From Asterochloris sp. CNOR1 (taxonomy: Eukaryota > Chlorophyta > Trebouxiophyceae > Trebouxiales > Trebouxiaceae): DNA of 64,000 nucleotides. The position numbers and the translations under genes are program-made. The notes under the pieces were generated by a model. That model saw nothing but the letters and a program-made list of their open reading frames with translations. It was not told where the DNA came from and did not search any database. How positions within the stretch are numbered: the first letter of the stretch is position 1; each line of letters opens with the position of its first letter. Shown in pieces: positions 1,673-60,434 of the stretch. The stretch covers positions 372,001 through 436,000 of the forward strand of contig OZ017747.1 of assembly GCA_963969365.1 (NCBI GenBank), given 5' to 3'.

Positions 1673-4600
1673 ATGGAGTATAGCGATGATGATGTGCTGC
1701 TGGACTGGGAGCAGTACACAGGTGACCTCAGGCAGCATTTAGCCTGTGCCCATGCCTCTGTGTGGCTGTCAGCTTCAGGATCTGCTCTGCCGCCAGTACT
1801 ACTGCGTACTGCATGGCCCAGGTCTGCCTAGTCTGGCAAATGCCAGGCAGTGCAGGACCGTGCATGCATGAAGCTGTCACATTCCTTTCATACCTGCGCT
1901 AGACTCATCTGAACCAGCTTTTGGCTGTGGCAAGGCTGCATGCTCCCAACTTCCGGGGACACTAGCCTTGCCCTTCCAGATCAACAAGCAGGAGACCTTT
2001 TGTATTTGTGCAGGAATGCATGCTCCCTTCAAGGAGCTGAAGCACCAGTAAAGTGTCAACCCATAGCATCAGCGAGGGAGCTCATGTGTTTCTGCTGCAG
2101 GGATGAAGCGCCTGCGCTTCTGTGGGCGGGACTGCAGTTGGGTGCTGCGGTGGATGCCCTTTGTGCCGGTGGCGCCAGAGTGGTGGTATCGGTGAGCGTC
2201 TGCTGCCTGCCTTACAATATTGCTTCGTCGCTCGGGAGGTGCCCGAGCTGCCATTCCTGCTTTGGGCCGCCTGCGTAAACAGCCCCAGCCTGTTACAGGA
2301 GTGTGCTGCGTTTGGGATGAAACAGTAAAGCTAGCAAAGCAGACTCAAGCTTAGGCAGCTTCTGAAGCCGCCATGCACTCCACAATCCCACCACTGCTGC
2401 AGCATTCAAGGGCAGCTCAATTCTTCCAGCTCCTTCCTCCTGCAGTGGGTCAAGTTGCCAGCGCAGGCTGATCTCGAGGATTTCAGAATCCTTGAACCCG
2501 AACTCAAGCTCTGGCGTCTAAATCAAGCTCTGCCCTTCAACTCGCAGGGGGTCTTGGTGCCAGCACAGGCTCATTGCAGCTTGACAAGTAGCTTCAAATC
2601 TCAAGTCCAGCTGTTTTTTTGGCTGATTATCCCTGCAGGGTCTCGTGGCGCCAGCACAAGCCATGTCTCCGTTTGTGGCGCTACCCCGGCGCTGACAAGG
2701 CTTTGGTCACTGCTCCTGCAGGTTCTCCCGGCGCCAGCGCAAGCTGATCCTGATCATGCTGGCAGGCGCCAGCATCCTGATTGGGCTGATTGTTGCCTTC
2801 TCGGTGCTGGCCGCTCTCCTTCGGAAGGGGCAGCACCACCAGGCGCCCAGCAGCAACCAGGGAGGCCTCACTGCAGCAGAGTACGCCAGTTACGACACCT
2901 GCAGCTGGTCGCAGTGGCGCCTGCCCACAGGTAAGACTGACTGCTGCATGGAACAGCTGTACATCAGTGTGCAGGGCTGGCTGGTTGCAGATGGTCTCAG
3001 ATCCACCGCTGGTCGCAGTGGCGCCTGCCAGAGGTAAGACTGACTGCTGCATGGAACACATGTAGTGGAGTGATGTTAGGTTTGATGAAGGTGCTCTCAG
3101 GATTGCTGCCGGGTGCACGGGAGCTGCCTACAGAGGTGAAGACTATATCTGGTGAAGACCGCTTGGCTGGTCTCACCTGGGCAAGCTGCACTGCAGCCAA
3201 ATGTGGGCCTGAGTGCAACCTGCACTGACTGTCTCTTGTAACAGACTTGTGGGCTGACGGTGTCTCCCAGACATGCTCGCTCACTAGTGGTGGAACAGGT
3301 GGGTAGAGGATGCAGGTGAAAATGTGACTTAGCTGCAAGGAGTCTCAGTCCCAGTGCCAGGCATAGCAGCGCCTGGCCACTGATTCATTGGTGAGGAAGC
3401 TGTGGCAGAGGTTGGCAGAGGTGACGCGGAGGCAAGGGCTCTCTATTCTGCTGCTGGACGTTTTTATGCGTGTGGCGCCTGCTTGTAGGTGGGTTGGAGG
3501 GGCTTAGGCCCTACCAGTGTGCAATATAGGCATGCCGGAGCCAGCCGCCATGAGTGCTGCAGCTCGTCCCAGTGGCCACTCACCCAAGGTCAGGTGTTAG
3601 GCAAAAGGGTTGCAACAAAAGGTCATCAGGTGTCAGGGAACGGAGGTCCTATCCGAAGAAAGTGCTATGTGTCGGAAGCGCATTCCAACGTAATTCACAG
3701 ACCCTCCGACTGCCAGCAGGGAGCTTGGCTTTGAGCCCAGCTCCCTCACCTGTGAGCAGGCGACAGCACCAAGTCCCTGCCTGACTGGCCTCAGTGAGGA
3801 TTGCTGACAGGACGCCTCACTTCCAATGGCAATGACTGGCCAGCAGTTTCCCTCACCTTCTTCCCTCAGAATCGCAGTGGGCTCAGTATCCTCATTTTCA
3901 GCACGACTCCACTGTCTGCAGGAGTGAAGCCAACCCTGTACAGCCTGCAGCTGGAGACCGATATGCAGGAGCCCTACGATGTGACTGGTCACGTGAACAT
4001 CCAGCTGGAGGTGGCTGAAGACACTCCCTGCATCGTGCTGCACAGCGAAGGCATGTACCTGGGAGAGGTCTCTCTGGACGGGGTTGAGCAGCCAGGTGGG
4101 CACCTGAGTACGCTGCAGCATCGTAAGCTTGTTTGACTTTCGACAACATCTGCAACAATATTGCCTGCTTGTGGTATGCCACTGTCTTTTAAAGCATTTA
4201 CGCTTATTGCTTTGCTTTCGCGTGTGAGTGGGTCCGCCTTTGACATTATTCAGCTGCAAACAAGCTGCAAAATGTTTGCAAGGAAGCTGGGGGCCTGCCT
4301 CAGCTGGTCGTCTCTGCAGGCCGCTGAGGGTGCTGATTGCCGGTGTGCTTTGGGCCAAGCAGTAACAAAGTACCCGACAGGCATGCTATGTGTGTTTGTG
4401 GGACAACAAAAGCTGCACAAATCATTTGCCTGTCGGCTGACAGGTTGCCATCCAGGTTCCTCTTGACAAGGCTGCGCTCATCTCATGCCAAGTCCTGCCT
4501 GCTGCTTCGTTTTGGGCCCACCAGGGTGGATTGCAGTGTGTCTGTGTGGCACGGCCATGCTGCACACGACCAGCAGGTCGAGGGCTGCCTTGCTGCTGCA

Positions 4601-7600
4601 GAAGTCGTGGTGACACAGACATTGACTCCAGCGAGCAGACCATGCCGGCAACATATGAGTGCACAGAGGCTGCTTTGCTGCTGCAGGCGTCCAGCTGACA
4701 CACAACGACTCCAGTGAGCAGACCACGCTGCAGCTGGAAAGGGTGCTCAAGGGGTCCTCCACAGTGACCCTGGGTCTCGTCTTCAACTACACGCTGGCTC
4801 CTGGCCTGTCAGGCTTCTACCGCAGCACCTTCACAGGTGAGTCCAGAAGGGGTGCCGCTGTCTGTGTTTAGAGTCATGTTGGTGGACACAATTCAAGCCT
4901 GTCCAAATTGTCCATGAGTGTGGGCCTACAAGCTGGTCGGGCTGCCATTCTGTGCTCAGCAGGTGCCTGCCCGGGGAGCTGTGTTACTCAGGCCAGCCAC
5001 CAGAGCTGGTGTGTTTGCAACAGGCTCTCTGACAGCGCCTGCTGGAGTGGTGGGTTTGCGATGTGGGCCAGCATTGCATGGAGGCGGTCACCCCAGAGAG
5101 CCTGCATGCAGTGCTCTCTGGCCTGCTCACAGGCCATGCCGGCAGGCAGTGCGGGAGTACTGGGTCACCTTCAGGGCTGTGTCTGCATGCAGTGGTGGAC
5201 TTGTTGGTGTGCTTTTTAGAGGCTATCGCCCCAGAGCGCCTGCATGCAGTGCTGCCTGCCATGCAGCGCAGGATGGCACGCCCCAGACCCTGGCAACGAC
5301 ACAGTTTGAGGCTGGGAGCGCACATGAGGCCTTCCCCTGCTTTGACGAGCCTGCTCTCAAGGTGTGGAGCCAGGCCCTGCTGTGCAGAGAGTACACTCCC
5401 CACCCTGTTGAGCCCCCTGCCTTGCCTGGCGTGCAGCAGCAGATGGGCAGGTGCACACCCTGGCTGTGACACAGCTGTGGTCGCAATATGCGCGCAGAGC
5501 CTTCCCCTGCTTTGATGAGCTCTCCCTCAAGGTGTGTTGGGCCCGGAAGGGCTAATCTGCAAGCACTAGTCTGAGTCTTCACCTGGCTTGGTCAGCTCCT
5601 TCCCCAAATATGCTGAGGTCACCAGGGTTGGCTCACATGCATATTGCAGCAGTAGCATCTGACATCCACCCTCCTGCTGTGTACTCCACAGAGGTGCCTG
5701 CCTGAACTGACATGACTCCTGACATGCAGTAGCATCCTCACCTGCTGTCGAATCCACAGGTAACACTGGAGCAGTGGGTGTGCAAAGGATGCTTTGATCA
5801 TCACAGCATCTCCCACCTGCAGGCAGCCTTTGAGATCAAGCTGAGGACCCCCGTGGGGTTGACAGCGCTGACCAACATGCCCCTGGAGCACACCCATCCA
5901 GCTGAGGGCGGCCTGCAGACCAGTCACTTCCAAACCAGCCCCCCAATGTCCACCTACCTGGTCGCCTTCATAGTGGGGAATCTGACCCACGTGTCCACCA
6001 CCGTGCCTGCGCCTGCGGGCGCTGCGTCAGGAGAATCCCGACCAGTCTCTATCTATGGCACCCCTCAGAGGTTAGCAAAAGGCAGAAGGCAACTCATCAC
6101 TGCAGGGTGTGGAGGCTGGGTCTGCAAGTCAGCATGTTCGAGCCTGAGTGGAGCTGATGGACATCTGCCCACAATGTGTAGTGCTGGGTGCAAACAGCTC
6201 AACCACGTCACTTCCGAGAGACTGCCGTCATTCTGCTTGCTGCCCCCACCAGCAGAGTCTAAGGCAGCACCATGCGCATTGCATGTTGTCTTTGGCCAGA
6301 AATTGGTGGCCAAGCAGTGTCACACCCCAAATGCTTGCAAACGATAGGTCATTTTGCTTACTTTCCCGTTCAACTGTGTCAATGCTCCTGAACGTCGCCA
6401 CCTGCAGGGCACAGCAGCTACAGTTTGCCCTCACCGTGACTGCTGCTGTCCTGACGGCCTTTGAGCAGCTCTTTGGGGTGCCCTTCACGCTACCAAAGCT
6501 GGACTTGGTTGCCATCCCAGACTTTGGTGCAGGCGCCATGGAGAATTGGGGGCTCATCACCTACAGGTGCGCTGCCCTGGTGTCTGCGCCATGGAGGGCT
6601 GGGGGCGCATCGCCTACAAGTGTGCTGCCTTCTCTGTGGCTGCATGCTTTGAGCTGCTTAGGTCAGGAGGGTGGTGTCATGGTGAAGTGGGAAAGGGCAC
6701 GGATGTGCCTCATGCTCGTGCTTTTGCTGCATGACCTGGAGGTGGCAGCACATGCACATACTCACCACTCCTCATTGGCTGCCACCTTTTTGCCTTTATA
6801 GTTCACAGCTATAAGGCATCTTGCTTGCTGTGGGATGCTGCCCTGAGCTGGGCCCTTCACGAGGTTTCGTGCTGCTGCCCACACCTGCCCTGCTGCTTTG
6901 TAGCTCAGGCAGCACTGTGCATCTCTGTGCAGCGTCACGAGCTAGGTCTGGGTCAGGGTTCAGTTTTCAAGGTGTGACACCTGCTGTGCAGGGAGACTGC
7001 TCTGCTCATTGACCCAGCCAGCGCTAGCATCCAGGATTACAGATATGTGTCAAATGTCATTGCTCACGAGATGACTCACCAGGTGGGCGCCGTTCATGGC
7101 TGGCCAGGCTTATCAACCTTCAAGGACTTTACCTGTGCTGGATCACTGTTGGCCAAACTGCACAGTACCTGATCCCTGGTGCAGCTGCATGCAATCCTGG
7201 CAGGGGCAGAACCTGGCATGTGATGCATGTCAAACCATTGTTCTATCACTGATGACCTTGAAGACAACCACACCTCAGACACCCTGATGCCTCATCTCTG
7301 CTCCTGCCCATACTATCCACCTGCTCCCCACCCCGCTGGCCTTCCCATTCACCTTTTGCCAGTCTTGCCAGGGCAGACAAGGCCTGCTGCACTGCAGTGG
7401 TTTGGCGACCTAGTCACCATGGACTACTGGGGGGAGTTGTGGCTCAATGAGGGATTTGCCACATACTTTGAGGAGCATGGAGCCACAGCTGCCCAGCCCA
7501 GCTATAGGTGACCGCAGTGCCATGCAGCCTGAGTTCAGCTCGTAGCAGGCATTGCCACAGGTAGCACGCATCACGCTCCCTACCTGACAGCAACACTGCA

Positions 7601-10600
7601 TCAGCACCACTAGTGGCGTTGCGTGTGTAAAATGGAACCTTCTGTGCTCAGGCAGCGTGGGCAGCTGGCTTGAGACAGTTCAGGTGCACACATGCTGCTA
7701 CAAATCATTCAGCAAGAAGTCACCTTGACTTCTCCGTGCTTGCATGCCTGCCCATTTGCCTCTGCAAGTGGACTTGGGCTACCCACAGGGGCACACTGGC
7801 CTGCAGGTTTTATGACACCTTCTTTGGCCGCACCACTGCTCGCGCAATGAGGGAGGACGCCAAGAATGGGAGCACTCACCCTCTGGCCACACTGACAGGT
7901 GGGCTTGTTGGCTGTGTGTTGCGCCTGGAGCAGGTCATCAGCATCATGGCGTCGGCGCCATACCTCACTAAGATGATGACTTGGCTCAGGAGGGGCACTC
8001 GCCCCCAGATTTGAAGCTACATTGCAGCTGGTGAACCTAGAGTCAGTGCCTTCACGCCTTTTTGGCCACTGGGCTCCACCATCTGCAATAAGTCACAGGA
8101 CTGACCTGTCTTTTTGCGCCTCTGTACAGGCATGCTGACACGCGGTATCAGGTTTACTGACTTACCACAATGCTGTCTTGCCCACAGGGGTTGACTCGAC
8201 AGGGGTCATTGAGTACTTCTTTGACGGCATCAGCTACCAGAAGGGCGGGGCAGTGCTGCACATGATCAGAGCCTACCTCAACCGGGACCAGCTTGGGGCC
8301 AACCAGTACGGCCTCAGGCGTCGGCTCCTACAGGTGAGCAGCAGCAGCCGCTGTGTCTACTTGCACAGGTGCTAGATCCAGGGGAAGCTGTGAGAACTGC
8401 ACCACACCTCAGTGCAGCTGGGTCAAGCCAGTGTGGCCTGAATGGCAGACTGACGCAGGCGCACAAACTTGGGAGTGCTTGGGTGCTGGCGGCTACCCTT
8501 CATAGCCGCCACTTGCAGCCCAGCGGCTGCTGTGTCTGCCTGCACAGCTGCCAGGTCCAGCCGAAGCCTGTGTGAACTGCAACATACCTCAGTGCAGATT
8601 GCCATTCAGGGTCTAACAAGTGCGGCCTGGGATCCAGACTGATGTGGCCGCGCTGCATTCGCAGGCAGGCTGTTGTGCGCTGCTACATGCCTCAGTGCAC
8701 CTGCCCGTCTGCCTGCAGGCAAGAATCATCATCCAGACCCCTGATGTAGGGCCTGCAGCATCCACTGAACGCCAGCAGGGCTCCGCAATCAGCTCTTACT
8801 GACCACCCGGTCTGCTTGCCTGTAGGAGGCACCCCATCAGACCAGAGTCTATGGGGCATTACGGCATGCAGTGTCCACAAGATCATGATGAGGGCTACTC
8901 TCTTCAGATTCAGCACAGAGTGCTGCAAAGTCTCACCTGGCTGCAAATGCTCAGATAGGATGCCTCCTTGCCTGCAGGCAGACGCCTTCATTCAGGGGCT
9001 CCAGGCCTATCTGAATCAGCATGCGCTGGGCACAGCCACAAGCGCGGAGCTGTGGGCAGCAGTGGCAGCCGCCACAGGGCAGCCTGTGGGGGACTGGATG
9101 CAGAAGTGGACGTATGAGTCAGGCTTCCCGCTGCTCAATGTGACGCTGAGCGGGGCAGGGGGGCTGGCTGTCAGCGTCTCCCAGGCAAGTGAAGGCTGCT
9201 GCGTGTGGTGGTGTTGTGCTTATATTAGGTATTCAGGGACTGGGCACTGCAGTTGCTGGCCGCCTTCAGACTGGATGTACTAGTGATATAGCGTTACCTG
9301 CTCAAGCAACATGGAAAGCATCACAAAGGTCTGGCTGTGCAGCAAGGGGGGAGCCTGGTGCAGGGACATGAGGAACAGCTCATAATCTTGTACTGTGCAG
9401 CAGTGAAAGAAGGAAAGCTGCCTGGTGCACGAAGGCAACAGTGCAACAATCTTTCCGTGCAAGCCGCTCTCCCCTGCACTTATGGGCTTCACAAAGCCTG
9501 CTGAAAATTTTTAATGGAAAAGAAAGATCAGTGAGATGTGTATAGTAAGACTGCTCAGTCCAGCTGCATGAGAGCCCAGCGATACTGATACTTGTGGCTC
9601 AGCGCAACACTTGTCGTGTGCAGGGCCCCCCACCGTCTCAGGCCCCATGCAGACTCTAAAGCTGCATGACAGTCCAGAAACCCTGCACCTGGTGGCTCAG
9701 CAAAACACCTGTGCTGCGCAGGCACCATTTGCCACCACAGGGCCCGGCACCTGCACCTCCCCCTGGTGGGTGCCCCTCAGCTACATCACCAGAAACGCCT
9801 CCAGCGCAGCCTGGAGCCCCTTTCAGAGCTGCACGACGACAGCGCCAGTCTACACCCTCCAGGACAGCTCAGACTGGGTTAAGCTCAATGCGGAGCAGTA
9901 CGGCATGTACCGAGTTAACTACCCTGTCAGCATGTGGGCCAACCTGGCGGCTGCAGCTGCAAACGCAACAGGTGGGCTCAGTGCCAGGGGTGCTGCTTGA
10001 GGCAGCGGCAACCCTGCCGGCACATGCTGACCTGTGCTGAGGCCCTGCTTGCTGCCACTCCGCTGCCATTCTGGGGTTGCAGTTTCAGGGACTTGGGGGG
10101 CTCCCAGCATTTTTCAAATTTTTGTGGCCACATCACATGTGCGTGATGCATGTGGGCCAAGCTGGCTCCGCACCTGCAATTGCAGCAGATGACCGCAAGG
10201 CTGGTGGATGCGACTGTGCCATGGCTGCTGCTATACATGCTCAAGCCCATCTTGCTGCACCTCGGTGGGACAGAGGAATCAGCTTGGGTGCATTACCAGC
10301 TGCGAGCAGTGTGTGCAGGCCAGCCTGCCCTCTGCAGCTCATGCTAGCACAGACTTCAGTGGATCTGGGCATTACACATGACTGAGGGTGAAAATCTGCT
10401 GCAGGAGTGGACGGCGCCACAGCCATCTCTGCCAACGATCTGGCAGGGCTGCTGAGCGATGCATGGGCCCTGTCTGAGACGGGTGTGCAGAGCATCGCTG
10501 TCTACCTGGAGCTCCTCAGGTGGGGCATGTGTGCAGCTTCAGCAGGACCCTGATGCCTAGCAAGCCCCTGCGACTTAGGCTTCAAGAGAGGTGGTTTTCC

Positions 10601-16100: not shown

Positions 16101-19100
16101 CAAGGTTGGCATGTGGCAACTCAACATCAGCACACACTGAGGTCTTGCCATTGCCCAAGAGGTGGCCAGCACCTGTGCGATCACATGTCTGTGCTGCGCC
16201 ATACGGCCCTCATGAACAGGTTGAGGGCCTTTGGCCAGCAGAGTCTGCTGATGCAGGGGCAGAGGTCCCAATGCTGCGTGACCTGGGATTCCACATTGCC
16301 ATCTGGATCATCAGATCATCTGTGCAGACAGGGGTGCAGCTGGTTTTCGCATCGTCATGTCTCCCTGCAAGCATGGCTGCCCAGGCGCGGTGGACAGCAC
16401 AGCCCAGCACAGCTGTGCTGCGCCAGCCTGTTCGTGCTGGGGCAGGCTGGTGGGCCCCACCTGCATGGCGTCTGCCAGCGTGGCGTCGCTCTCAAAGCGC
16501 CATACCAGCCACTGGGCGCCCTTGACAAAGCCCCGCTCGCTCACGTCCGCCACAAACTCGCCTGCACAGCACGCTTGCCATTGACTGCCCTGCTGGAGCT
16601 GTTCACTTTGGCTCTGCTTGTGCAGCTATGATCTTGCTTGGCTTTACGGTCCCTGATCCTTGGTGTGGTCCAAGCATCAACCACTCCTCCCACCACATTC
16701 AGATCGGGCCGTCTAATCTGGCACAGGAGCCCTACTCAGCACAGGCCTGCCGCTGCCACAGGCGTAGCTTGTGCCGAGGCCAGGTGAAGCCTTGCACAGA
16801 CCCTCACTGGGTCTGCCTGCAGTCAGCAGCGATCAGCGCATCAGGCCGCCTCACCTAGGTACTCTGCGGCCGCGCGCTTGACTGCAGGGCTGCGCTGAAT
16901 GCGGGAGTTCATGTATGCCTCTGCCTGCCCTGTCTCCCCAGCTCCCTGCAGGCATGCCAGGAATCACATGAGTCACAAAGCAAGATGTCGCTGCCTCCAG
17001 CCCCAGCCCACACCTGCCTTGCACCAACCTCAGATACTCACTACTTTAGAGGGTGGCCAGACAAAGTGTGTGCAGCTGTCCTATGCAGACATCCTTCCCT
17101 CAGCAGAGACAAAGTGGGCTGCAGCAGGCGGCAAGGAACCTTGTCTCTCATGCTCAGCAGTGCCTCTGCTTGCAGGGGAGTGCACCTCTCCCATGCCTTT
17201 CACCCCAGGCCTCTCCCTTCCTGAACAGCAGCCCGCATTTATTCCTTGCCTGCACTGAGCCAGGGCTCCCTCTCGTGTTGCAATCTCAGCAGTGCCTCTA
17301 CTTGTGCAATAATGCCTCTCTCTTGCCTGCACCCATGCCTCTCCCTGCCTCACCAGCAGCCCGCCTTGGCCTTGAACACAGCTGGGTCCTCGTGTCCATG
17401 CACCGTGCACAGTACTGTCTCTACCTGACCACTCTCTACCTGCCCAGCAATGCAATCTTACACTATGTCCCCAGCCCGCCCTGAGTGCTGACATCAGTCA
17501 CCCTCCCCAGTGGCATGAGTGACAATGCCCGACCATCAGGCACCTGACCTCGGCCAGAGTCCCCAGTTGTATCACAGGCATCTGACCACAGGCAAACAAA
17601 CACTGCAGATTCCCTCTGGGTGCGCCTTCCCACAGCACATGCAGCGGTCCACGCTGCCCAGCAACCCGCCTCAGCCAGGACACCCGTCTTGGTCACCAGC
17701 CAGCGTAAACCCAAGAGGTGAACAACTGCTGCACTGGAAAAATTCACTCCAAGCCGCTTGTCTATGTCACATGCACTGCCCCCCACTGCCTGCGCAGCAG
17801 CTCACCTTGGCCATTGTCCCTGACTTGAGGAAGTTGGCCCGAACCTCCACGCGATCCAGGTTCACCCTTTTGAGCACCACTCGCCGCTTCTTCTCGTCGG
17901 CTGACAGCTCAGCTGCCTGCTCCTGGCTCTTGCCCTTGGTGATGAGGCCAGCATACACCTGCTGGCAGGCACGGAGTTAAGCTGAGCAGTCAGCACACCA
18001 GCACAACCCCCCTTGACGCCCATGGTTTGGTGCCTCAGCGTCGCTCAGCAGGCAGGAGGTTGCCCTTGCTTTCGACATTTGCAGACATCTACGAACTGAA
18101 GTTGCCTCCCTAAGAGGTCTGCAGCCAGATAGCACGGTGCACTGATCGGGCGGACGGGCAGGCAGAGGAAAGAGGTAGCCCAGCTGCTGCGTGGTACAAG
18201 ACCGGCACTGATCCAGGTGAGCATGCACAGTGCAGAACCCAGTGCAGCATGTTCACGCGGGGCTCTGACTGAGCCCAGCCCTGTTGCTGCCAGCTCTGCC
18301 AGTCATCATCCTGCTGCAGCTCACACTGAGCTTCTGCTGGCCACCCAGAAGTTGATACACGCAGCCTGCAGTGGTGACAGACATGCAACTCCAGCCTAGG
18401 TAGGAAGACCAGCCCCACCCTGCAGGGCTGGCGACATTTGCAGCCTATCTGATGGACTACTGAGTGCAGATGCATAACACAGCAGGACCCGGGCCTGCCG
18501 GGGTGCCACACAGGTGAGCCTTACAGAGCTTGCCTGGCCATAGTTGCCGCCTCCCAGACGTTCTCGCAACTGCAGGTTCTCCACTCGCCACTTCCGGCTG
18601 GCTGCCTTGCTCACAGGGTTGAGCACAAAGAAATCCCAGATGCCAAAAAAAGGGCTGGGCCTGCAGGCAGGGCCAGAGACTCCTGAGCAGGGAGCACATC
18701 ATCACACTGAAATGCGGGCAGGGCATATGCGCAGCGGCCTGTCGGCATCTTCAGCTCTAAGCGCAGGTGCTGGTGTCTTTGACTTCAGAGCCTTGTGTGG
18801 TGCAGCCGCTGCAGCGTGAGGTGGCGGACGCCAAAGCCGATGCGTCTGTGAGGACGTACCTTGTGCCGAAGAAGTACCAGATGGCCTGCAGCAAAGAAGG
18901 CATGAATTAGCAGCGAGCTCTGCACATGCCAGTGCCAACAATGCAGGCCTGCCCCTATGCCCAGCATTGTACATGGAGGGCAGCCTGCAGCTGCCGGGCT
19001 GGTCCTCTCTCCCCATGAGAACTACACAACCTGTCTTCTCACCCCAAGACGCGACAGGGATCCAGGTCCGGCCCTCAACGCCACAGTGTCTGCCAAGTCC

Positions 19101-23250: not shown

Positions 23251-23788
23251 TGCCTGCACCAGATGGAGGCCTGCACCACGGCGCGCACCCAGCTGCCTGT
23301 GTGACCACCTCTGTGGATTTCTGCATGGCTGCCATGCACAGTACTGCCTCCAGATCCTCTGACTTGTGCAATAACTCATGGCAGCAGCCCACCTGGTTGG
23401 ATGCTGGTTGCAGAGGGATTGTGCGCAGCACAACCCTATATCCCTCGTGTGCGCGACAGAGGCTTGGTCGAAGAAAGCAAACAATACCCACAGATCTGGC
23501 CATATTGACAATGCTGTGATATATGTGCACTGCTTAGCAGCATTTGTGCAGAAAGATGTTGAGGCAGAACTGCCCCAAGGACCCTTCCTGTCTTGAATAC
23601 TTTGGAGACATTCCTGGCATCCTGGGTTCACACTGCACTGCATCCCATGCAGCCTGCATGCCCATCTTGTGCTTCACCCAGCGCCTTAACCTGACTAGTG
23701 AGAAGTGGCCTGGCCAGTAAGAGGGAAAGAGTTCACATGCTTCAAAAGTGCCTGCTTCAATGCTTTCAGCGCGCAGCAGAACTTTAAA
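23251..23788. other. Spacer between dehydrogenase C and eL22
   Basis: This 538 bp interval lies between the stop of eL22 and the start of dehydrogenase C, both on the minus strand. It should hold the dehydrogenase promoter and the eL22 3' UTR. A minus-strand frame stays open upstream of the dehydrogenase ATG to 23643, but it resembles no known family and is not needed for the protein. Confidence 0.5.
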
Positions 23789-25671
<1,883 letters not shown>

Positions 25672-33964: not shown

Positions 33965-34487
33965 GGTGTCTGCAGCACAGTTTCCAGATGGTAGAGGCAT
34001 GGGCCCAGCTACCTCTGAGCACTGTCAGCGAGACCATCAGGGTGCCTGCTAGATGAGGACCTGGGCCCCAATGGCAATTGGGCCTCTGCCCCCGTTATAA
34101 TGCGATTTTCATTGATACTCATGCTGAGGAAGCACACTTGCATCTTCAGAGGCGCTTCGCTGCCTCCAAAGCACTAAACACAAGAATTACATATTTGGAC
34201 TTATGCCCAGGATACCCTGACAAAACACATATGCGTACCTGAATGCCTTAAGATGATTGCTGCTATGTGCAGAGAGCAGAGATCAGTGGGAGCCCTCCGG
34301 CACGATACATGCTCTTGCCCTGTCCTCACCTGCACAGACTGTGCTGCCCTCAAGCCAACCAAGCCTGGCTTATCACTTCAGGGGTGCACTTCTGCTCCAA
34401 GTCTGCAATGCTATGCCCTGTGCTGCATGCAGTCGGACCTGACATGCACGTGTCTCCTGCTGCAGCACTGGCGCCACTAGTGCAGTC
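33965..34487. other. Spacer upstream of dehydrogenase A
   Basis: No gene is recognised. Parts (for example 34253-34460) are similar to the region upstream of dehydrogenase B (37290-37500), including gcagagatcagtggga and a cacctg-acagactgtgctg run. The tandem duplication of the dehydrogenases therefore includes upstream sequence. Confidence 0.6.
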
Positions 34488-36981: not shown

Positions 36982-37509
36982 GCACCTCTGAACCGAGCCT
37001 TGTTCTTCTATTCTTTGCTTCACGCAGCACTGAGCAGCACGCGTTTGGACTCGATGGGAATCAAACATATTGTAACATCAGAACTCGAGGCAGAGGCCCA
37101 GCTGGTAGTCAGATTCTCATTGGCTCCCTGGTGGTCCTGCTGACATTGTGATTCAACTTCTGTAGGTTTGATACATAACAAAGGCGCTTGGACAAATTTA
37201 ATAAACTAAATCCAAGAAAATAGATTCAGATTCATGCCCAGGTCAACTTGATAACACTGTCTTTTCTTGAATCCTGAATGCCTGAGGTGATTACTGGGAA
37301 GTGCAGAAAGCAGAGATCAGTGGGATTCCCCTGACCTCATTCATGTCCTTGTCCTGCTCTCACCTGTACAGACTGTGCTGCCCTCGGCCTCAGCAGGCCT
37401 GGCTTCTCAGATCCAGGGGAGCACTGAGATCCTTCTGCTCCAGGTCTGCATTGCTGTGCCTCATGATGCATGCATTGTATCTGACATATCCTCCTGCTGC
37501 AGTACAGTC
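36982..37509. other. Spacer between dehydrogenases A and B
   Basis: It contains the 3' flank of copy A, including tgtaac at 37071-37076 (TGTAA is the usual green-algal polyadenylation signal), and the upstream region of copy B. The latter is duplicated from, or with, the region before copy A. Confidence 0.5.
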
Positions 37510-46317: not shown

Positions 46318-49300
46318 CTACTGTGCTGGCATCTTTGCTCGGGCCACGCCAAGCATCGAGTCTCGGGTGACAAGTTCCATCAGCTTCTCAGGGCTCCAGC
46401 CTTCTGTGTTGGATGGTCGCTGGGGTAGCACCATGTAGCGCATGTCGGCTGTTGAGTCGTGCACACGGACGGCCACGTCAGGGTCCACCTCCAGCCCAAA
46501 CTCTGACAGCACTGCTCTGGGCTCCCTAATGGCGCGGGCACGATAACTTCTGCACGCAGCATGCAAAAGTTCTTGACTGGCAATAGGCACAGAGCACGGT
46601 CACTACAGTCATAAAGCATGCATGATAGTGGATCATGGGCCCCCATGTCTGGCACAAGGCTTGAACCAAGCACAGTAACTCCTGCAAGCAGCATGTCGTG
46701 GGCACAGTTACAGCCTCCAGCAGCTGGTGGTAGGATGCAAGAAGACAGCTCTGCAGGCATGCTGCAGAGCAAAAATCACACTGCAGCTGCAACATGTGAA
46801 ATTGTGCATCAATGCATAACGAGGCACTGCAGGGTGCCATGTGCCTTGCAAGGTTTTGCTGTGCAGCTGACCTGCTCTTATACCATGGCGGGGAGGCACC
46901 AAGAACACTGATCTGCAACACCAATAGCAATGTCAGTAGCCGACACACAGATACTTCAGGCTCAGAATAAAGCTGGCACACAATGCACCCACCGGGTAGC
47001 AGCTGCAGAGAGTGCACACAATCAGATTGTGAACCTGCAGGGCACGTAGTCTTGTCAAGAGCAGCCTCTGGAAGACTTCATCAGGAAACAGTGATAGGCC
47101 AGCATGGTAAAATGACTGCAGCAAGGAGTGCAGGAAGTCTGCTTGCCTGGTCAGTGTTCTCCACCACAGTGAGGACAGTGCCGGCCAGACTGGGCGCACC
47201 AGTGGGGGCCTTGTAGCCTGCAGCAGAGTGGTGCTGCTGTGGGCCACCACCCAACAGATGCGAGCAGATGAGCCAGATTGATACAAGCCGCCGAGAACAT
47301 TGTAGCCTGCAGCATATGTTTATGAGGGACTGATGCAGCCACCTGCTGCCCCACACCTCGGGACCACCCTGATCAGTTAAGTCAATTCCTTGTCCCAATC
47401 CACCAGGCGCAGGCCCCTGCAGGCATGCAACGTCCGGATGCAGTTCCCATCACCGCAGCCACAGCCTCTGAGTTTGCACCAAACATGCTTGGCAGGTCAT
47501 TGGGCAGGCCAATTCGTGCCCTGCTCAGGACAGCTGTGGGATGCCCTTCTGTGGGCATCTGCAGCCCACCTGGCGGTAGTTCCTTGGGAGTGAAATTGCT
47601 GGACGGAATTCCCATTTCCGCAGCCGCACCCGCAGCGTTCTTCAGCAAGCGCGCTTTGAAGGGTGGGTCGGTCCAGGCCCGTGCCACGAGCTGTGCCCCC
47701 AGCTGCTTGCGTCCCTTTGAGTCCAGAGCCTCAGTGGCCTCCCTCAATTCATTTGCTGTAATGATGCCCTTGCTGGTGAAGATCTGCAGGCACAAATATG
47801 AGTGACGGGCAATATTGGTAATTGCAGGCCCTAGCACCTTGTAATGCCTCATTTAAACGGCCGAGATGGTGCCCTTGCTGATGAAACCCTGCAGGCAAAT
47901 CTTTGATTGGGGGGCGTTTCTGGCCCCTGTGGCATGCGCACTTTTGCCAATTGGCCACGATAGGGCCCTGGCAGGTGAGCACCTGCAAGCACGTGTTGGG
48001 GTTGGAAGGGCGCTTTCAATGTGCGGGTCCCAGCCTTGCCTGCGAACACCTGAATTTTTTAAGTTTGAACATCAGGCTCTGTTGCAGGACACTGCTGGTG
48101 TTTGCAGGCGCCAGTGGCCTCACCCAGCTGGTGGACAGACATGATCCTATGCTGGCGCAGACCTGAAGACGGACCCTGAGTTCGTTTTAAGTTGACTGTG
48201 AGCCGCAGACAGCTCAGCAGAGGACAGCAGACTCCTGCAGACAAGTGCAGCAAACAAGTGCAGCAGGAGGTGCAGCGCAGTCAGCAAGGCAGCCGGCCCG
48301 AGCTGCACTTCCTGTCTGCAATGCTGGATGACCCCTGCAACAGCATCTCGTTCCCTCAGCTTCAGGCCAGCTGCAAATGCATTGTGCACGGTAGACTCCA
48401 CATGGGGTGGCCACCTCACACAAGGCTGACCTTGACAAGCGCATCAGTCAGCCGCCGCCGCTCCTGATCATCCCCCTCGGCGTCCACAGCATTCTGCTCC
48501 ACCACGGAGCGCCCCTCGTGCACATGGTCATGCCCATGCTCGTGGCTGTGCTCATGACCGTGCTCATGCCCATGCGTATGCTCATGGCTGTGCTCATGCT
48601 GTTGGGGTTGGCCGTGGCCTTGGCTGTGGCTGTGGGAGTGCTCGTGTGCGGGGTCCTGCCGCTGCTGCGTGATGAGGCTGCTGCGACGCTGGGCGTCCTC
48701 GAGCTGGCTCTGCAGCTGCTCCTGGGAGCCAGGCTCCAGCCAGGGCTGCAGCAGGCAGTCGCTTGCAGCCTGATGCAGGCATTGGCCCTCCAGCTGATGC
48801 AGGGAGGCAGGCTACAGCCAGGGCTATCAAGCGGCACCTTTCACAAGGTGAATATGGTGTGTTACTGAACTGAATGCCAGCAGGCATGCTGTCTCTACAT
48901 CGCCCCTCGGCACTTGACGCCCAATGGCAGTCACAGTGACTAACTCCAATGCTTGCCACAACCGCATACCATACCTGGCTAGCATAGGTGGCAGGCACCA
49001 GTCGTGCCGAGAACTCTGCCCAGCCACGCGAGTGGCCAGCCAGGTACACGCAGCTGTACCTCAGGACATGTCATGCGCAGCACAGAAGGTTCACCTGGTA
49101 GGTTTCAACATCCGCGGTGTCCTTTGCGAAGCCTGTGTAGCCTTCCCAGAGAGCCTGCAGGGCAGCAGCGGGCAGGTGGACACTTCTGCTGGCCTCCTCT
49201 GCTGGACCAGCTGACTAGGTCAAGGGCTGGTGCGGGCACCTGCAGCTGCTGGTGCTGCTGCAGGAGGCTGGGCGCACTCCACAGGAAGAGCACCCAGGGC

Positions 49301-51192
49301 CAGCTCCAACAGGACGAGCAGCACAAGTATCAACCTGGGCTGCGGCCAAAGCCCAGGGAAACAGCGCAGGCCTCCACGCCATCAAGCTGACTGAAGATGG
49401 CCCCAGTACAGCAGGGGCTGATGCCTGCTTCTTGGTGGTTGCAGCTGGCATAGCACACCTGACTGCTCATGACGACACAGGTCAGCAGCTGCCTGCCAGG
49501 CTCAGGCTGGGGGCCTCTCTGCCTTCCAAATGTGACCAGCAGTGGCAGCAACACGGGCGGCCTAGTGCCAGCTTTGCAGGGTACACAGGTCATGACAGCC
49601 TGAAGGGCGACAAGCTCACCCCATCTGTCCATGGGGAGCACAGCTGAGGGGTGTCTTACCTGCTGGTGGAAGCGCACTCTGTACAGAGGCTGCCGAGGAA
49701 TGTTCTGCCGGAAGGCCAGACCTTCCGGGTGCTCTGCATAACCCACGCACTCCCTCTCAACGACGCCGCACACTCCAAACAGGTAGCCTGCAGGCCACAT
49801 TTTAGCTTGCGGCTGTGTGCTAGCGAAAGCCTCAAACCCCAGGACGCCCTCTGCAGACAGCACTGCGGTGTCTGCCTTGATTGGCAAGACTTTGCTGCTG
49901 CATGCCACACGGCCACTCTCATGATTGTGAAAGCTGACACTAGAGTCTCAGCAAGTTAGCTGAGAGTACGACGAGGCATCAATGAGACACTGGCATCTTC
50001 GTGTCACTACTCCTCAATGCGCACCTGGCGTCCTCAAGTGGGGCCTCCGCCAGCGCACTGCAGAGTCCTCCCTTCTCACCCGCACCACATCGCCCTCCTT
50101 GAACCTGCAAGCAACAGGCCTATGCTGCTGCTGACGACAGTCAAAAGGGCTGGCTCAGCGAGCGCATGCTACTGCATGCAGCTGCACCACTGGAGTGGGG
50201 TCAAGGCATGTTATAGGCCGGCCCGACACCCCACAAAGTTCTATTGTTGATACATGCTGATTCCCAGCTTTGTCCCGGTCACTTTACAGACAGTCCTCTG
50301 CCCGTTCGACACCTGCTGGCTCGACACTTCAGCTCTGTCACAGGCAGGCATGCAGCCCTTTGCCTCAAGCATGCCACAGGCGGCCAGGCAGCAGATAGCC
50401 CCTGCCATTGAAAGACACGAGCTCACTTGACCTCTGGCTCAGTCACAGGCTTGCCCATGGCAGCATCGATGTCCCTCTGCGAGATGTTGCCCCGCTCCAT
50501 CTGGATGCTGGCCACGCTGGCTGCCCACTTCTCATAGTAGCTGCGGTGCTTGTAGGCTGCCTCTGGCAGATCCTCGAGGCCGCGGCGCAGCTCGTCAACG
50601 CTCAGAAGGCCCTTGGTCGACAGCTGCACAGGGCCGCAGCGCTGGCAGTCAGGACAAGGCAATTGGCGACAGGCCAGACTGGGGTGAGAGAGGATCTGGC
50701 AAAGTCTGAAGTCTAGGAAGAGACTGATAGAGCTCATCAGCTCTCAAAAAGCCCTTGACAGACAGCTGCAGTGCAGCCAGCGAGGTGCAGCAGCTGCAGC
50801 GGCACGACGGCTAGCGCCAGTCCACCAAGATACCCTGCTTAGCACCAAGCATGGACGTCCATGGTGCTTGCCACAAAGGCAGGACACTTGAGGCGGGACA
50901 TGAAGTGGACTGGGGGAACACAGCAGGTGAGGATCAATCATTCGCTGGTGAGCACACATGGGTCTCATTGGAGATATGAGGTGAGGCTAGTGGCAGGCCC
51001 TCCTGATCAGCAGCAGCAACAACCATGTGCATAGAAAGCAGGTGCCTCTTATGCACTACTCAGAAAGCTCACCAGGGATACCAGGGAGTGTGTCTGCAAT
51101 TCCCACTCCTGCAGCGTCTTCTCGGTGCGATCAATGGGGCCCATGTCCTCCTCCCTGCCCCCAATGTCTTGCTGCCCAATGCGCATAGACAT
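46318..51192 (-). CDS. Nitrile hydratase, beta and alpha subunits fused via a His-rich linker
   Basis: This is a metalloenzyme that hydrates nitriles to amides. Eleven exons phase to 521 codons: 51192-51073, 50623-50427, 50104-50025, 49787-49660, 49154-49095, 48811-48431, 47783-47570, 47217-47147, 47034-46993, 46912-46872 and 46549-46318. The beta part comes first: [67 protein letters not shown] and [14 protein letters not shown] linker with 19 His in about 44 residues (48517-48648; [17 protein letters not shown]) follows. The alpha part is [34 protein letters not shown] (metal site, cobalt-type CTLCSC), PPWYKS and [18 protein letters not shown], ending [17 protein letters not shown]. The exon 8 donor is GC. 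Bacteria usually encode the subunits separately; a fused His-rich form is known from the choanoflagellate Monosiga. The beta arginine region is only loosely conserved. Confidence 0.92.
47760..47995 (-). repeat. Ghost exon starts beside the nitrile hydratase alpha exon
   Basis: The acceptor and start of exon 7 (47783, [12 protein letters not shown]) have a copy 109 bp upstream in the gene (near 47891, FISKGTI with gcag before it). A third copy lies near 47983 ([11 protein letters not shown] after ttgcag). All lie in the intron after the His-rich exon, in the same orientation. Confidence 0.82.
50700..50775 (-). repeat. Ghost copy of nitrile hydratase exon 2 start
   Basis: After a cactgcag acceptor at about 50773 the minus strand reads [12 protein letters not shown], matching the start of the real exon 2 at 50623 ([12 protein letters not shown]). 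The copy diverges after some 45 bp. Confidence 0.82.
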
Positions 51193-51767: not shown

Positions 51768-54700
51768 ATGGCAGCCAAGTTGCTCAAGGCGCTGAGCTAT
51801 GAGCAGGCCCAGCGCTTTTGCAATGCGCCGGTGGGTTTGACCCAGCATGCCGCTGCCTCCACGCCCTGCTGCTGCTCAGCACACAGCATTTGTGCATTTC
51901 CGCACAGACCTGTCTTTGCTGAGATAATGCTGACAGCCTGCGCCACCATGCACATGCAGGGCCGTGCCAGCTGCTTCAACAGGTTTGCCCAGACCCAGCT
52001 GGCGTCTCTGCAGCTTGCGCTGCCCAATGTCTTTCAGCAGCAGGCCTGTTGTAAGCTTAATTCAGGTGCGCTATCTCCCTGTCTGCAACACCAAGCTGCA
52101 TTGTGCAGGCTGGCACAGTTGGGCCAAATCCCACATGCCCTCTACAGGGGCTTCAATCAAAGCCTGGCATGTGTACTTTTGCCTGTTGAGAGTGTGTCCA
52201 GCCATGAATCTGAGGGCCGTACATGCCCACAAGGCACCACCTTGTGGAGTCATTCAGCATGACGGGGTGTCACTTCAGCCAGAGCCCAAAATCTCTGCCT
52301 TGCCACGCTGCTGCACCACGCGCTGCCTGCAGATTGGCAAAGTACGCTGCCTGTTGATGCTTGGCAAGCATCATCATTTAGACATCCCTACCAGAGACCT
52401 GCATCCTGCTCTCCATGCAGACCATGCAAAGTGCCAAAGCCTGCATCCCCTGTGCACGCAGAATTTGCAAAGTATCCGGCCATGCCGGAACAGGACCGGC
52501 GCCAGTTGGTGCTCCAGACTGCCAGGGCAGTCATGGCCTGGGAGCCCAGCCTCATGAACCCTCAGCTCATTGCACAGAAGCAGCAGCAGGCGCAGTGGGG
52601 CAGGGTGAGGCAGGCAAAGTCGGGCTCCCAGGTCTCCGGTCCTTTGAGCTTGGCAGCGACTCAGCCCCAGCAGCCAGCGACGTTTAGCCAGCGCTTGGAG
52701 GAGCCTGCTCAGGCACAGTCACCGCCTGGACACTCGAGCAGGGCTGCTGCTGGCTTGCGGCCTGGAGTTGCTGAGGTGCAGCCAGCCAGGCGGCCACCTG
52801 ATGCAGCTGCCAGCCTGGCCCCTGCAGGCCTGCAACAGGCTCCACATATGGCCTCCTCTGCTCTGGCGATAGGCACCATAGGGAGCGAGGAGGCTGCTAG
52901 AAGCACAGGCAGCTCCCTAGCTGCCATTCAGCAACTTCCATCAGGCAGCTTGCTGAATGTATCCTCAGAGCATGACAGCTCCCCTGAAACCCCCTTGGCC
53001 CCGATTGATCCTTCGACAACAGATGCATCCTCCTCCCCTGAACTGGATGCCACCCGCAGAGGGACAAAGGCAGAGACCCTTGCATTCAGAACCAGCTTCA
53101 TCGCTTCAGCTGCTGCTGCCTCCTCAGCTGCTCAGCTCAGCCTGGCCCAGCCAGAGGAAGCAGGCACTCCAGGAGCCTCTCTTGGAGATGGGGAGCAGAG
53201 GACAGCCAAGTGGCATGCACTACGTGAGGGGCGCCTGACCGCAAGTGCCTTCGGCAATGCCCTCGGGTGAGCTGCAGCGCCCTACACGGAGATGCTCTGC
53301 AGCTGCCAGCGCCATTGGAGACGCCCTTTGATGCACTGCTGCTCTCCTCTGCTCCTCTTGATCGTGACAACCTCCTAGGTATGGACATGAAGCAGGGGTG
53401 TTACTTGAGGGGGCCATCACAACACTTGGCATGTGAGCTGGCCATCCAAGCTGTGCTGCTAAGCGGCTGCTGCACTTCCTTCTTTGCTCTGCTGCCGTGA
53501 CAACAATCACATGGCTATGTACCACGAAGCAACCTTTTCTTGTCCTGCCCACCTGCTGATATCTGCTGTGCCTGCATGTGCAGCTTCTGGGACGGCGGCA
53601 GGAGTGCCCTGTGGGAGGAGAAGCTCAAGCTGCGGCCACGCTTTGCCGGCAACGCAGCCACCATGTGGGGGACCAGCAGCGAGGATCTTGCGCTGCAGAG
53701 GTGCGCGCTGCGAGCGACTGCGATGTCACATGCCCTCAAGCAGTTGCCAGCTCCAGGCGTCAGCAGTGGCAGTGCAACAGACTTCTCTGGTTGGGATGTA
53801 TAAAGAGTATTTAGACCTTTTTCATTCCATGCGTAATGATGACACTGCAGCAGTGGACTGGTGCCAGCTGCTATGGCGTGGCAGATTTCCAAGCAAGCAT
53901 TGTGCAGGCAGACCCAAGGCATCTAGAACACCACTCCAAGCGGCCAGCATCCCCACTCTGAGCTGCTGTGCAGGTACCAGCAGATCACAGGGCACCAGGT
54001 GCAGGCCTGTCGCTTCCATGTGCTGCGCGACGACCTGGTGCACGGCTGGCTGGGGGCATCTCCAGACGGCCTGGTGGATGCGCTTGGTGCTCAGCCAGGT
54101 AAGTGCCTCCTTGCAATGTTGCTGCGTGGCTCTGCAGGCTGCCTTGCAACTGAGGCGTAAGCTCGGGGCGTTAACCTGCTTGTTGGCTGCTTGAAGGCTG
54201 CCGTACCAGGATGCCTTGAAGGCCTGCTTTAGAAATAGCTCCATCCTCAGATGTGCTGGTTGCAGTGTTGGACGTTCGAAACAGGTGGGTATGCTGGCAT
54301 GTTGCTGACTCTGCTGTAGCAGACAAGGACATGGCAGCCTGCAGAGGCAGCTTGGGACAGGAAAGTTGGGGGTTGTCCCAAAATGTACTGATGAACTGGC
54401 GAACACTTAAGAGGCACCCTCTGCCACTTGCTGCAAGAGGTTGCAGCTCTTGTCAGCAATGCAGGGCGTCGTGAGGCCCTGTCTACTGCTACCACTCAAC
54501 AGTGCCCTCGCCTTGCCCCATGTCCTGCAGGAGACCTGTCAGCGTCAGACCTTGTGGTTGGGCAGGGTGCGGGGATCCTTGCGGGGGAAGGGCCAGGGGT
54601 GCTTGAAATAAAGTGCCCCTTCAATCGCGGCAATCCTCAGGATGCAGCGCCGCCCAAGCTCCCGCAATGGTACTACATGCCCCAGGTCATTGCTTGCCTT

Positions 54701-55480
54701 TTAGCAAAACCACACACTGCAAGCTGCTCTGCAATGTGCTCCCTGACGGGGATATGTATTACAGGCTCTACGTGCTCTGAGCACAGGTGCATCGCTGCCA
54801 TTCACTCCCTGTTGTGGTCTGCATAGTTGGGTACAGCATCTCCCCCCTCAGCAGAATGCTTCAACCTTGCAAGTTGAAGCCTGTAAGGCTGCTCATACAG
54901 GATGTGAGCACTGTCAACTGCTGTCAGACAGCTTAGTCCCCCTGCTGCTGCGCAGGTGCAAGGCCTGATGGAGGTGTTTGACAGGGAGTGGTGCAATATG
55001 TTTATCTGGACCCAGAATGGCAGCGGCCTGTTCCATGTCAAGCGTGATCGCAGCTACTGGGATGCCTGCTTTGACGTGCTGGCCCAGTTCTGGTGGCAGC
55101 ATGTGGTCCCCGCAAAGCATGCTTTGCAGGCTGGCGACATGGAGAGCGCTCTGAGCTACAGGTGGGTGTCTTTGCCTCAGATGTGTTGTGTGCGTCAACA
55201 CAGCAGTACTCTGCTGCTTCACATTGTGGCACAAAACTGTGCTCCATGGTGTCCTGATTGAGGGCTTGCAAGCAGGACGGCCCAGCTCTATAAACCATCC
55301 ATTGGCTGCTGCAGGCCACATGAGGAGCACCCGCTTACCAAAACAGTCATGGCTCTGAGCAAGGACATGGCTTTTGGTGCTGCTGCAACAATGTACCCAC
55401 CAGACTTTGCTGGGCGGCAGACCAAAGTGCAGCTGGCCCCAAAAGCGCAGCTTGTGGCCCCACTGACAGCAAAAGAGTGA
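51768..55480 (+). CDS. YqaJ-type (lambda exonuclease family) nuclease
   Basis: This is a PD-(D/E)XK DNA exonuclease domain of the YqaJ/lambda exonuclease group, also found in plant and algal genomes. Firm exons: about 52395-53266, 53584-53700, 53974-54098, 54531-54685, 54956-55161 and 55315-55480. Core motifs are WHALREGRLTASAFGNALG, TMWGTSSEDLALQRYQQITG, GASPDGLVDA (catalytic Asp), VLEIKCPFN (Glu-x-Lys) and WYYMPQVQGLMEVF. Before the domain is a segment of about 200 residues rich in Q, A, P and S (about 52560-53140) with no recognised fold. The true start is unclear: an ATG at 51768 (MAAKLLKALSYEQAQRFCNA) is attractive but its phase does not join any strong acceptor. The first ATG in the main exon is 52482. 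Organelle or nuclear repair is a possible role (inference). Confidence 0.85.
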
Positions 55481-55685
55481 ACTTTCAGCGACCATCAATT
55501 CATTTGATAATGCAATGACATCAGTTGTTTGCAACCTGCTTTCAGTTTGGAATTTGCTTGTGAATTTCTTGAGCGTCATCAAGATCAGCGTCATCAAGAT
55601 CAGCCTGCCAGCTGGAACCATGCATCTTGATGGCGCTCACGAAACAGTTTATTTGCTTTTGCCCAGATATCATGAAAGCTCCAGC

Positions 55686-59300: not shown

Positions 59301-60434
59301 TACCTGCTGCTGAAGCCTCCTCCGCAGCTGTGCAGGAGATTGGGTCCTCGCGCCTGCTGAGAGCGCGGGTGCGCATGCAGCAAAAGTACTTGGAGCAGTA
59401 TTACGACCTGTATGAGGACTTCCACATCGTCAAGCTGCCCCTGCTGGAGGAAGAGGTCAGCCCGTGTGTCCCAATATGCTGCAGACCTGTCTCAGATTGG
59501 TCAAGCTGCCGCTGCTGAAGGTCCTTGCTGTAGTAACAGGCAGCCTGTGTGCCCTTAACAGTCAGCTGCTGGATAGGTAAGTTTTGGCTGCGATATGTTC
59601 GCTGTTTTGGCCGCCGCATACGTGCCTCGGGGTCAGGTGGGGCTTTCGAGCACATTGGTCAGCTGCACCTCACATGCTGGAAGCATGCGGTGTCTCCCTT
59701 TAAACAGGCTGCTGAGTGAGTTTGCGTGCCGGGGCCTGCAATGCAGTGATGATATTGGGGTCTGCAGCTGTGCTGGCTGCTGAACTTCCCTTGTTGTATG
59801 CATATCTCAAGCAGCCCCTGTGGGTGCAGGAGCTCAGCCTGTGTGACGTGCAAGCAAGTCGCACACGTGGAACAAGTGTGGGTTGCACAGGACTCTTTTG
59901 CAATGCTTAGTACCGCTGTGATGACTGTCAGGTGCATCCTTAGGGGTCTCAGCTGGATTATCTTTTCATATCAGCAATCTGCTCTGCTGGAGGATGAGCT
60001 GGGCTAGATTGAATGTTTCTGCAAGTTCTCAAAATAGGGACTTGTCTGGTGTTGAGTACGTCAGACTGCCTTGCCCGACCTGCAAGTGGGCACCATCTTG
60101 TGTTCAGCCCTTGTGATCAGTCAGGACAATGTGCATGGCATGCCAATCTCTCAGGCAGCTGTCTGCGACAATTGGCTAAACACTGAATGGCTCGCCATGC
60201 CAATATCTCGCAGCAGGCAGCACAACCTTGGGCACCCTCTGACTGCAGATTGCTGTGTTCTGGTGCATGCAGGTTAGGGGAACAGAAGCCATCAAGGAGT
60301 TTTCAAATTTCCTGCTCACTCCATATGTACCTGAGGCGCGCCCAGAGATCACGGACAGAGTTGAGCAGTTGCAAGAGCAGGTCGAGCAGCTCCAACAAAA
60401 GTGTCAGCAGCTTCAGGCTCAGCTGGACAAATGA
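56380..60434 (+). CDS. GET3: GET3/ArsA-type ATPase for tail-anchored protein targeting
   Basis: This is a dimeric P-loop ATPase that carries tail-anchored membrane proteins to the ER. Seven exons phase to 357 codons: 56380-56479, 56606-56769, 57281-57412, 58051-58272, 58918-59091, 59336-59455 and 60273-60434. Motifs are [20 protein letters not shown] (deviant Walker A), [16 protein letters not shown] (switch I), [30 protein letters not shown] (switch II) and [20 protein letters not shown]. In the late segment [20 protein letters not shown] the CxxC zinc pair of yeast and animal GET3 is absent. The C-terminus ends in a short coiled coil ([20 protein letters not shown]). Loss of CxxC is typical of some plant/organellar GET3 paralogues, so a plastid or mitochondrial form is possible, although no clear transit peptide precedes the P-loop. 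Confidence 0.93.
57172..57320 (+). repeat. Ghost copy of GET3 exon 3 start
   Basis: The acceptor and start of exon 3 (57272-57320, tttgctgcag then [10 protein letters not shown]) have a diverged copy at 57172-57220 (tctgctgcag, then atatcg.ccgacccagga.gagggtgac), offset 100 bp, within intron 2. Confidence 0.8.
59425..59536 (+). repeat. Ghost copy of GET3 exon 6 end
   Basis: The end of exon 6 (cgtcaagctgcccctgctgg, 59428-59447) recurs as ggtcaagctgccgctgctga at 59498-59517, about 70 bp downstream in the intron. Confidence 0.7.

Follow-up and report, generated by a model that had tools for sequence, protein, structure and literature searches.

Old local tandem duplications as the probable source of decaying exon edges in Asterochloris introns

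How do the introns of a green alga come to hold second copies of the exon edges beside them, and do these copies serve any function? The question is raised by a 64-kb stretch of the Asterochloris sp. CNOR1 genome (positions 372,001 to 436,000 of contig OZ017747.1; hereafter the window), in which a first-pass annotation had described introns of at least eight unrelated genes (one of them, NFU, as a possibility) that hold diverged copies of an adjoining exon edge with its donor or acceptor. We call such a copy a ghost. After following up this description in the window and in further samples of the genome, which totals 56.4 Mb in 21 contigs, we consider it probable that the ghosts are real remnants of old tandem duplications, a genome-wide and ordinary mutation process, involving no new element, that leaves exon edges which are spliced out and decay.

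We scanned the window and 20 further 10-kb stretches from 18 contigs, whose positions were arbitrary but fixed, by offset for ungapped direct and inverted similarity (264 kb pooled, 21 sequences; standard cut-off, score at least 18), and compared the counts with three runs of dinucleotide shuffling. Within the window, 43 direct repeats and 1 inverted repeat lay 20-300 bp apart; the other samples yielded 155 direct and 1 inverted, with at least one direct repeat in 20 of 20. At separations of 20-449 bp, the pooled sequence held 221 direct and 2 inverted repeats, compared to 0, 3 and 0 in the shuffles, which puts the ghosts far beyond chance and bears out the earlier statement that they lie in direct orientation. 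At 2-5 kb we found 36 direct and 2 inverted repeats; 28 of these 36 fell in the window, where we put them down mainly to a pair of dehydrogenase genes (B and C, below) offset by 3.0-3.2 kb. The process is thus local, same-strand and widespread. The repeats show two features of short local tandem duplications: they run in direct orientation and are not confined to one compartment, as their copies cover 4.7% of the bases between genes, 6.2% of those in introns and 7.6% of those in exons. When each of 1500 test segments was compared with a single 900-base foreign stretch, 96 segments were spanned by a local repeat of score at least 18, compared to none with a match in the foreign locus (one at score 16); the similarity is local.

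Gene models were obtained by joining 16 aminopeptidase exons by hand and using them to seed a gene finder, then trained on the 264 kb (631 exons; donor CAG/GTGAGC, acceptor CTGCAG/G). Among 526 predicted introns, 138 hold some repeat copy; 380 have an edge predicted with high confidence, and a ghost of an intron's own edge of this kind is present in 31. Counted by junction, 49 of the 506 confidently predicted ones have a recognisable ghost, on 17 of the 21 sequences. The available part of a description of the Asterochloris glomerata genome gives 56 Mb and 9 introns per gene (PMC6652019). The densest sample, L007, has 21 chains in its 10 kb; at 7195-9302, acceptors and small exons recur in arrays nested within one another.

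The lead example, which proved exact, lies in the aminopeptidase gene, where 2904-2961 recurs at 3008-3064 (offset 103-104; 22/22 and 34/37 positions identical). The pair covers the exon end, a GTAAGA donor and ~30 intron bases, and had one match across the genome. This gene could be compared with an independent protein, P0001 (1077 amino acids), which was 100% identical across an 892-residue query and comes from a 4084-base contig whose source, lgn, we take to consist of reads after assembly. The gene extends over ~11.8 kb of the window, so that contig must be spliced. P0001 uses exons 2722-2930, those starting at 3922 and 4687, 5267-5361, and one ending at 6566. The aminopeptidase features, in window coordinates, are as follows.

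2437-2473, plus strand: ghost of the acceptor and exon start for the exon from 2722, the most distant of three (28/37 against 2713-2749, offset 276); absent from P0001.
2544-2570, plus strand: second of these three acceptor-edge ghosts (22/27 against the third ghost, 2635-2661).
2632-2661, plus strand: third of these acceptor-edge ghosts, still with CTGCAG (26/30 against 2715-2744, offset 83); acceptor score 8.5, compared to a median of 8.1 for real sites.
2722-2930, plus strand: real exon with both edges duplicated; P0001 matches 100% on 2720-2932.
3008-3064, plus strand: ghost of exon end, donor and intron start (source 2904-2961); donor GAG/GTAAGA, score 5.2, skipped in P0001.
4583-4645, plus strand: ghost of the acceptor and start of the exon from 4687 (29/35 and 26/31 against 4668-4728).
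5267-5361, plus strand: real exon coding ...TTQFEAGSAHEAFPCFDEPALK; P0001 residues 279-310, 100% on 5266-5361.
5423-5536, plus strand: whole-exon ghost of 5267-5361, in which the two splice sites are present and the frame is open (exon-like part 5437-5531), 36/52 and 33/38 against 5253-5304 and 5329-5366, offset 170; not in P0001.
6578-6629, plus strand: ghost of an exon end with its donor, from the exon that runs to 6566 (42/52 against 6525-6576, offset 53).
9562-9624, plus strand: ghost of the intronic part of the acceptor that precedes the exon at 9722 (47/63 against 9660-9722, offset 98).

When P0001 was placed on the window, five ghost regions (2437-2661, 3008-3064, 4583-4645, 5423-5536 and 6578-6629) went unused; as one spliced sequence, it cannot show rare isoforms. 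The exon ending at 9184 has an apparent GC donor (CAG/GCAAGT, 9183-9186), in agreement with the spliced protein.

Ghosts were recovered in six of the eight genes originally named: aminopeptidase, STN8-like kinase (weakly), dehydrogenase C, MINDY, nitrile hydratase and GET3. In the first five, the repeats cross predicted junctions; in GET3, two ghosts derive from one exon end. The other two did not stand, as dehydrogenase B had zero local repeats even at score 13, and NFU had merely two repeats, at score 13, leaving its ghost unconfirmed. Pfam searches with three predicted proteins gave MINDY-3/4, protein kinase and ArsA/GET3 domains. The nitrile hydratase label comes from precomputed Pfam domains in the relatives listed; these are nitrile hydratase domains, in agreement with the names given. 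Outside the aminopeptidase and the dehydrogenases, the features are these.

17336-17371, minus strand: STN8-like kinase, ghost of the donor edge of exon 17806-17958, GT changed to GC (28/36 against 17777-17812, offset 441; weak).
40867-41037, minus strand: MINDY, 36-bp array in which a donor-like CAGGTGAGC recurs at the edge of predicted exon 41024-41245 (110/135 at offset 36); ghost donor score 9.1.
42079-42108, minus strand: MINDY, acceptor-edge ghost of predicted exon 41616-41932 (27/30 against 41924-41953); acceptor score low, 1.4.
46670-46695, minus strand: nitrile hydratase, acceptor-edge ghost of exon 46318-46549 (22/26 against 46538-46563).
47847-47915, minus strand: nitrile hydratase, acceptor-edge ghost of exon 47570-47783 (49/69 against 47742-47810).
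50731-50770, minus strand: nitrile hydratase, acceptor-edge ghost of exon 50427-50623 (32/40 against 50589-50628).
59500-59521, plus strand: GET3, ghost of the end of the exon ending at 59455 (20/22 against 59429-59450, offset 71).
59807-59845, plus strand: GET3, second exon-end ghost with a former donor, GT now CT (31/39 against 59430-59468, offset 377).

The predicted, fused nitrile hydratase gene also contains a histidine-rich stretch (48419-48811, minus strand). Compared with the Asterochloris model set Astpho2, its whole proteins were 88% and 90% identical; for the first Astpho2 protein, 8 of 10 exon-type matches were 95-100% identical and two were 75-90%, with two spurious histidine-rich matches set aside. 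No Astpho2 entry stood among the matches listed (at least 120) for the aminopeptidase or for dehydrogenase C. Elsewhere in the window, ankyrin-like repeat proteins (labelled by eye) at 61650-63911 on the minus strand have ~81-base periodicity; this region holds the start of 7 of the 39 window repeat chains, which look like coding repeats rather than ghosts. A protein predicted at 51768-55480 (plus strand) bears, by eye, a likeness to YqaJ-type nucleases.

The dehydrogenases provide a comparison between paralogues. Three D-isomer hydroxyacid dehydrogenase paralogues lie at 20707-23326 (minus strand), 33816-37583 (plus strand) and 37615-40208 (plus strand); B and C form a tandem pair with ~74-83% DNA identity. 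Dehydrogenase C has one clear full tandem unit with a deletion.

38721-38837, plus strand: dehydrogenase C, ghost of the acceptor, exon start and part of the coding sequence, from which 23 bases are deleted; it lies in tandem with the real copy and ahead of it.
38838-39008, plus strand: dehydrogenase C, second copy, continuing into the predicted coding exon 38881-39008 (gene model and alignment with B).

Paralogue B carries a single copy of the acceptor and exon start (35637-35790), compared to two in C, the first lacking the 23 bases and drifted in its exon part. Since B has no local repeat even at the lowered score, it can serve as the unduplicated comparator, and the alignment of the pair shows the states before and after a duplication across a splice junction. 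Together with the 20 positive samples, this pair upheld the proposal that tandem duplication acts genome-wide, sometimes across junctions, and lengthens introns. Divergence is uneven along 38721-38972, with 62/64 positions (97%) identical to 38838-38901 and then 37/51 (72%) to 38922-38972. This pattern does not follow easily from uniform neutral drift; it suggests a later local event, and a short conversion tract is possible. A protein search with dehydrogenase C gave, among the matches listed, none above 65% identity and hence no sequence from its own species.

We suggest that stretches of ~20-450 bp were copied in direct, head-to-tail tandem throughout the genome, apparently by ordinary replication slippage or microhomology-mediated tandem duplication. 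If the unit spans a splice junction, the original site would still be used, and the extra edge and splice site would be removed within the lengthened intron. The spare copy would then decay mostly neutrally, as would units within introns or between genes, and most copies are presumably dead. Copies of exon edges may remain recognisable for longer; they stand out because their partner in the real exon is conserved.

The earlier description had copies of all ages, and a spread does exist, although it is skewed toward old copies. Identity is below 0.85 in 137 of 200 chains, and reaches at least 0.90 in 16 of the 169 pairs (9%) with offsets of at least 60. Tandem duplications simulated at ages of 0.10-0.30 substitutions per site per copy gave roughly the observed distributions of identity and length; in contrast, simulated ages running uniformly from zero put 32% or 49% of detected pairs at 90% identity or more, compared to the 9% observed. 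Thus, most copies are old, and young duplications are scarce.

We considered whether splice junctions are special, since ghosts had been described as copies of exon edges. This was right only to a mild degree: junctions are enriched, but repeats of the same kind occur inside introns, inside exons and between genes. Of the 200 chains, 64 span one confidently predicted junction, compared to 27.2 by random placement (a count reached in 0/500 simulations); 43 lie wholly within introns, compared to 69.6. These counts are not independent, as the 64 junction pairs occur at 49 junctions and the 43 intronic ones in 34 clusters. Among chains with identity of at least 0.85, 18 span a junction (6.7 expected) and 21 are intronic (23.1 expected). 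Counted by position instead, a local repeat spanned 40/420 junctions, 26/420 intron, 22/420 exon and 8/240 intergenic positions; a larger sample gave 48/486 for junctions, 84/1700 for points in introns (46/700 close to a junction and 38/1000 farther off) and 39/875 for points in exons. The odds ratio of junction to intron was 2.1 (p 1.4e-4), or 1.76 (p 0.02) at scores of at least 24. When duplications were simulated on the real gene layout, the ratio of junction to intron-only pairs was 0.26 without constraint and 0.52-0.58 with exon constraint (0.53 at 0.35 of neutral). Further runs gave 0.44 for short units and 0.63 under stronger constraint; in two that combined stronger constraint with older copies, the ratio reached 1.02 and 1.26. 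Exon conservation therefore accounts for the doubling seen in the position counts, but not fully for the excess of pairs, which lies mostly in old ones. We do not claim targeting of splice sites from the 64 junction chains, given the odds ratio of 2.1 and the doubling that constrained exons produce in simulation.

Several observations weigh against old, neutrally decaying tandem copies as the whole account. The observed ratio of junction to intron-only pairs (64:43 = 1.49) lies above the simulated 0.44-0.63, and by age it is 0.86 for young and 2.09 for old pairs, compared to ~0.6 and ~0.5 in simulation. The runs that reached 1.02 and 1.26 put the share of intron-only pairs with identity of at least 0.85 at 15% and 35%, compared to 49% observed, and gave 2.07 and 6.26 other pairs per intron-only pair, compared to 1.49. 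Since no simulation fits all measures, some retention beyond neutrality may have occurred. Ghost acceptors keep AG in 30/36 comparisons, compared to 24.7 expected from the surrounding block, a difference of ~2 standard deviations. The share of pairs with identity of at least 0.90 was 9%, compared to 4%, 3% and 12% in three simulations, and long near-identical partial pairs made up 4/169, compared to a simulated 1/401, 0/398 and 12/397. Some blocks are sharp, with little similarity beside them (2904-2961, 95% over 58 of 104 bp; L004 6386-6437, 92% over 52 of 175 bp). Finally, the gene models outside the aminopeptidase are predictions.

The scarcity of young copies, the surplus of old junction pairs and the retention of AG would be covered together if a past burst of short tandem duplication had been a main source of intron sequence and some of the exon-edge copies had been selected as alternative acceptors or exons, with 5437-5531 as a candidate. 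We regard this combined reading as unlikely.

It is likewise unlikely that many ghosts are functional alternative exons or splice sites, preserved for regulated or mutually exclusive use. The first-pass annotation had expected decoy or alternative sites, and potential sites do persist: 14/28 comparisons for ghost donors and 27/36 for ghost acceptors outscore the bottom tenth of real sites, in addition to the AG retention and the surplus of old junction-spanning pairs over simulation. Use of such sites was not seen, however, in P0001, which contains none of the five aminopeptidase ghost regions, and ghost donors keep GT in 16/28 comparisons, compared to 18.4 expected from the block. The whole-exon ghost at 5437-5531 argues for function in that it retains both sites, an open frame and an arginine of the family, and it is a possible mutually exclusive exon; it has 95 bases, however, and inclusion of both copies would shift the frame. 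The arginine, present in 18/18 relatives shown, is kept in the ghost and lost in the used exon. We dropped it as proof of function, since it shows merely that the duplication predates the loss.

Templated repair, in which a nearby 20-60 bp are copied into a break and an unrelated spacer is left, seems quite unlikely as the general source of ghosts. In its favour, the median block spans ~0.3-0.5 of its offset for most classes of identity, and two blocks have sharp edges. Old plain tandem copies, however, give similar blocks in simulation, and the flanks outside the blocks in 115 spaced pairs retain a local score of 9.64, compared to 8.06 in re-paired controls. Templated insertions are known to occur in both orientations, and the 221:2 excess of direct copies does not fit that pattern. 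We therefore set aside gene conversion or templated insertion inferred from short, high-identity blocks as unneeded, with a few sharp pairs as possible exceptions.

The first-pass annotation had also raised intron gain, by which introns are born through duplication of an exon segment containing AGGT and have ends like those of exons. This mechanism is known, with 188 events in the accessible text of a review (PMC3443670), and a potato case, as far as its available text describes it, crosses an intron-exon boundary (PMC4974935). The claim was not supported here, and we find such an origin very unlikely for the bulk of introns: donor and acceptor flanks match in register at 4.55 of 18 positions across the 526 predicted introns, compared to 4.60 in shuffled pairs, with no excess, and 1/526 introns reaches 11 matches, compared to 0.6 expected. 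Moreover, since the ghosts carry an existing junction and intron sequence, the intron must have pre-existed.

An assembly artefact (uncollapsed haplotypes or chimeras), for which we found no support and which just the few near-identical pairs would allow, is hardly credible, as the 137 chains below 0.85 identity are too diverged for haplotypes and the aminopeptidase exons match an independent sequence. Mobile elements resembling introners, or a repeat family dispersed through the genome, which could put a copy in 138 of 526 introns, have a practically negligible chance, given 0/1500 segments with a match at score 18 in the one 900-base foreign stretch tried for each, 1 at 16, and the one genome match of the lead example.

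Old tandem duplication, the reading we prefer, thus stands beside several described systems. Gao and Lynch (2009), on ubiquitous internal gene duplication, are said, by their title, to describe a common within-gene process across eukaryotes; here we see mostly decayed intronic remnants of exon edges, and the overlap between the two is uncertain. That new introns can arise by tandem duplication is well documented (PMC2891723, a Drosophila survey; PMC3443670; PMC4974935, potato RdRp). In the accessible parts of these accounts, the likeness is in short within-gene duplications, with the potato unit crossing an intron-exon boundary as here; the difference is that a new intron arises there, whereas existing introns lengthen here and the register test gave no new-intron signature. 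Tandem exon duplication is also a source of alternative exons (PMC9013439); exon 5267-5361 and its ghost at 5437-5531 share the anatomy of the mutually exclusive exons in the available text, but one such exon was examined closely here and P0001 contains copy 1 alone. Introners, as far as the available text of PMC9860276 describes them, are alike in changing intron content en masse across genes; in contrast, our sampled loci share no common sequence at score 18. We found no genome-wide account of dense decaying exon edges in an alga in searches of one open-access library, outside which most subscription journals lie, and the sole case in print that we found of a duplication crossing an intron-exon boundary, going by its available text, is the single potato gene (PMC4974935).

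For annotation, these results carry a warning: gene finders may take ghost edges for exons, as ours did, in the aminopeptidase as well. For the biology of Asterochloris, one genome, with ghosts at 49 of 506 junctions, offers a countable record of the lengthening of introns and of the birth and decay of decoy splice sites. The sequenced relative represented by Astpho2 is probably close enough for its introns to be aligned with these, which would make the rates directly measurable.

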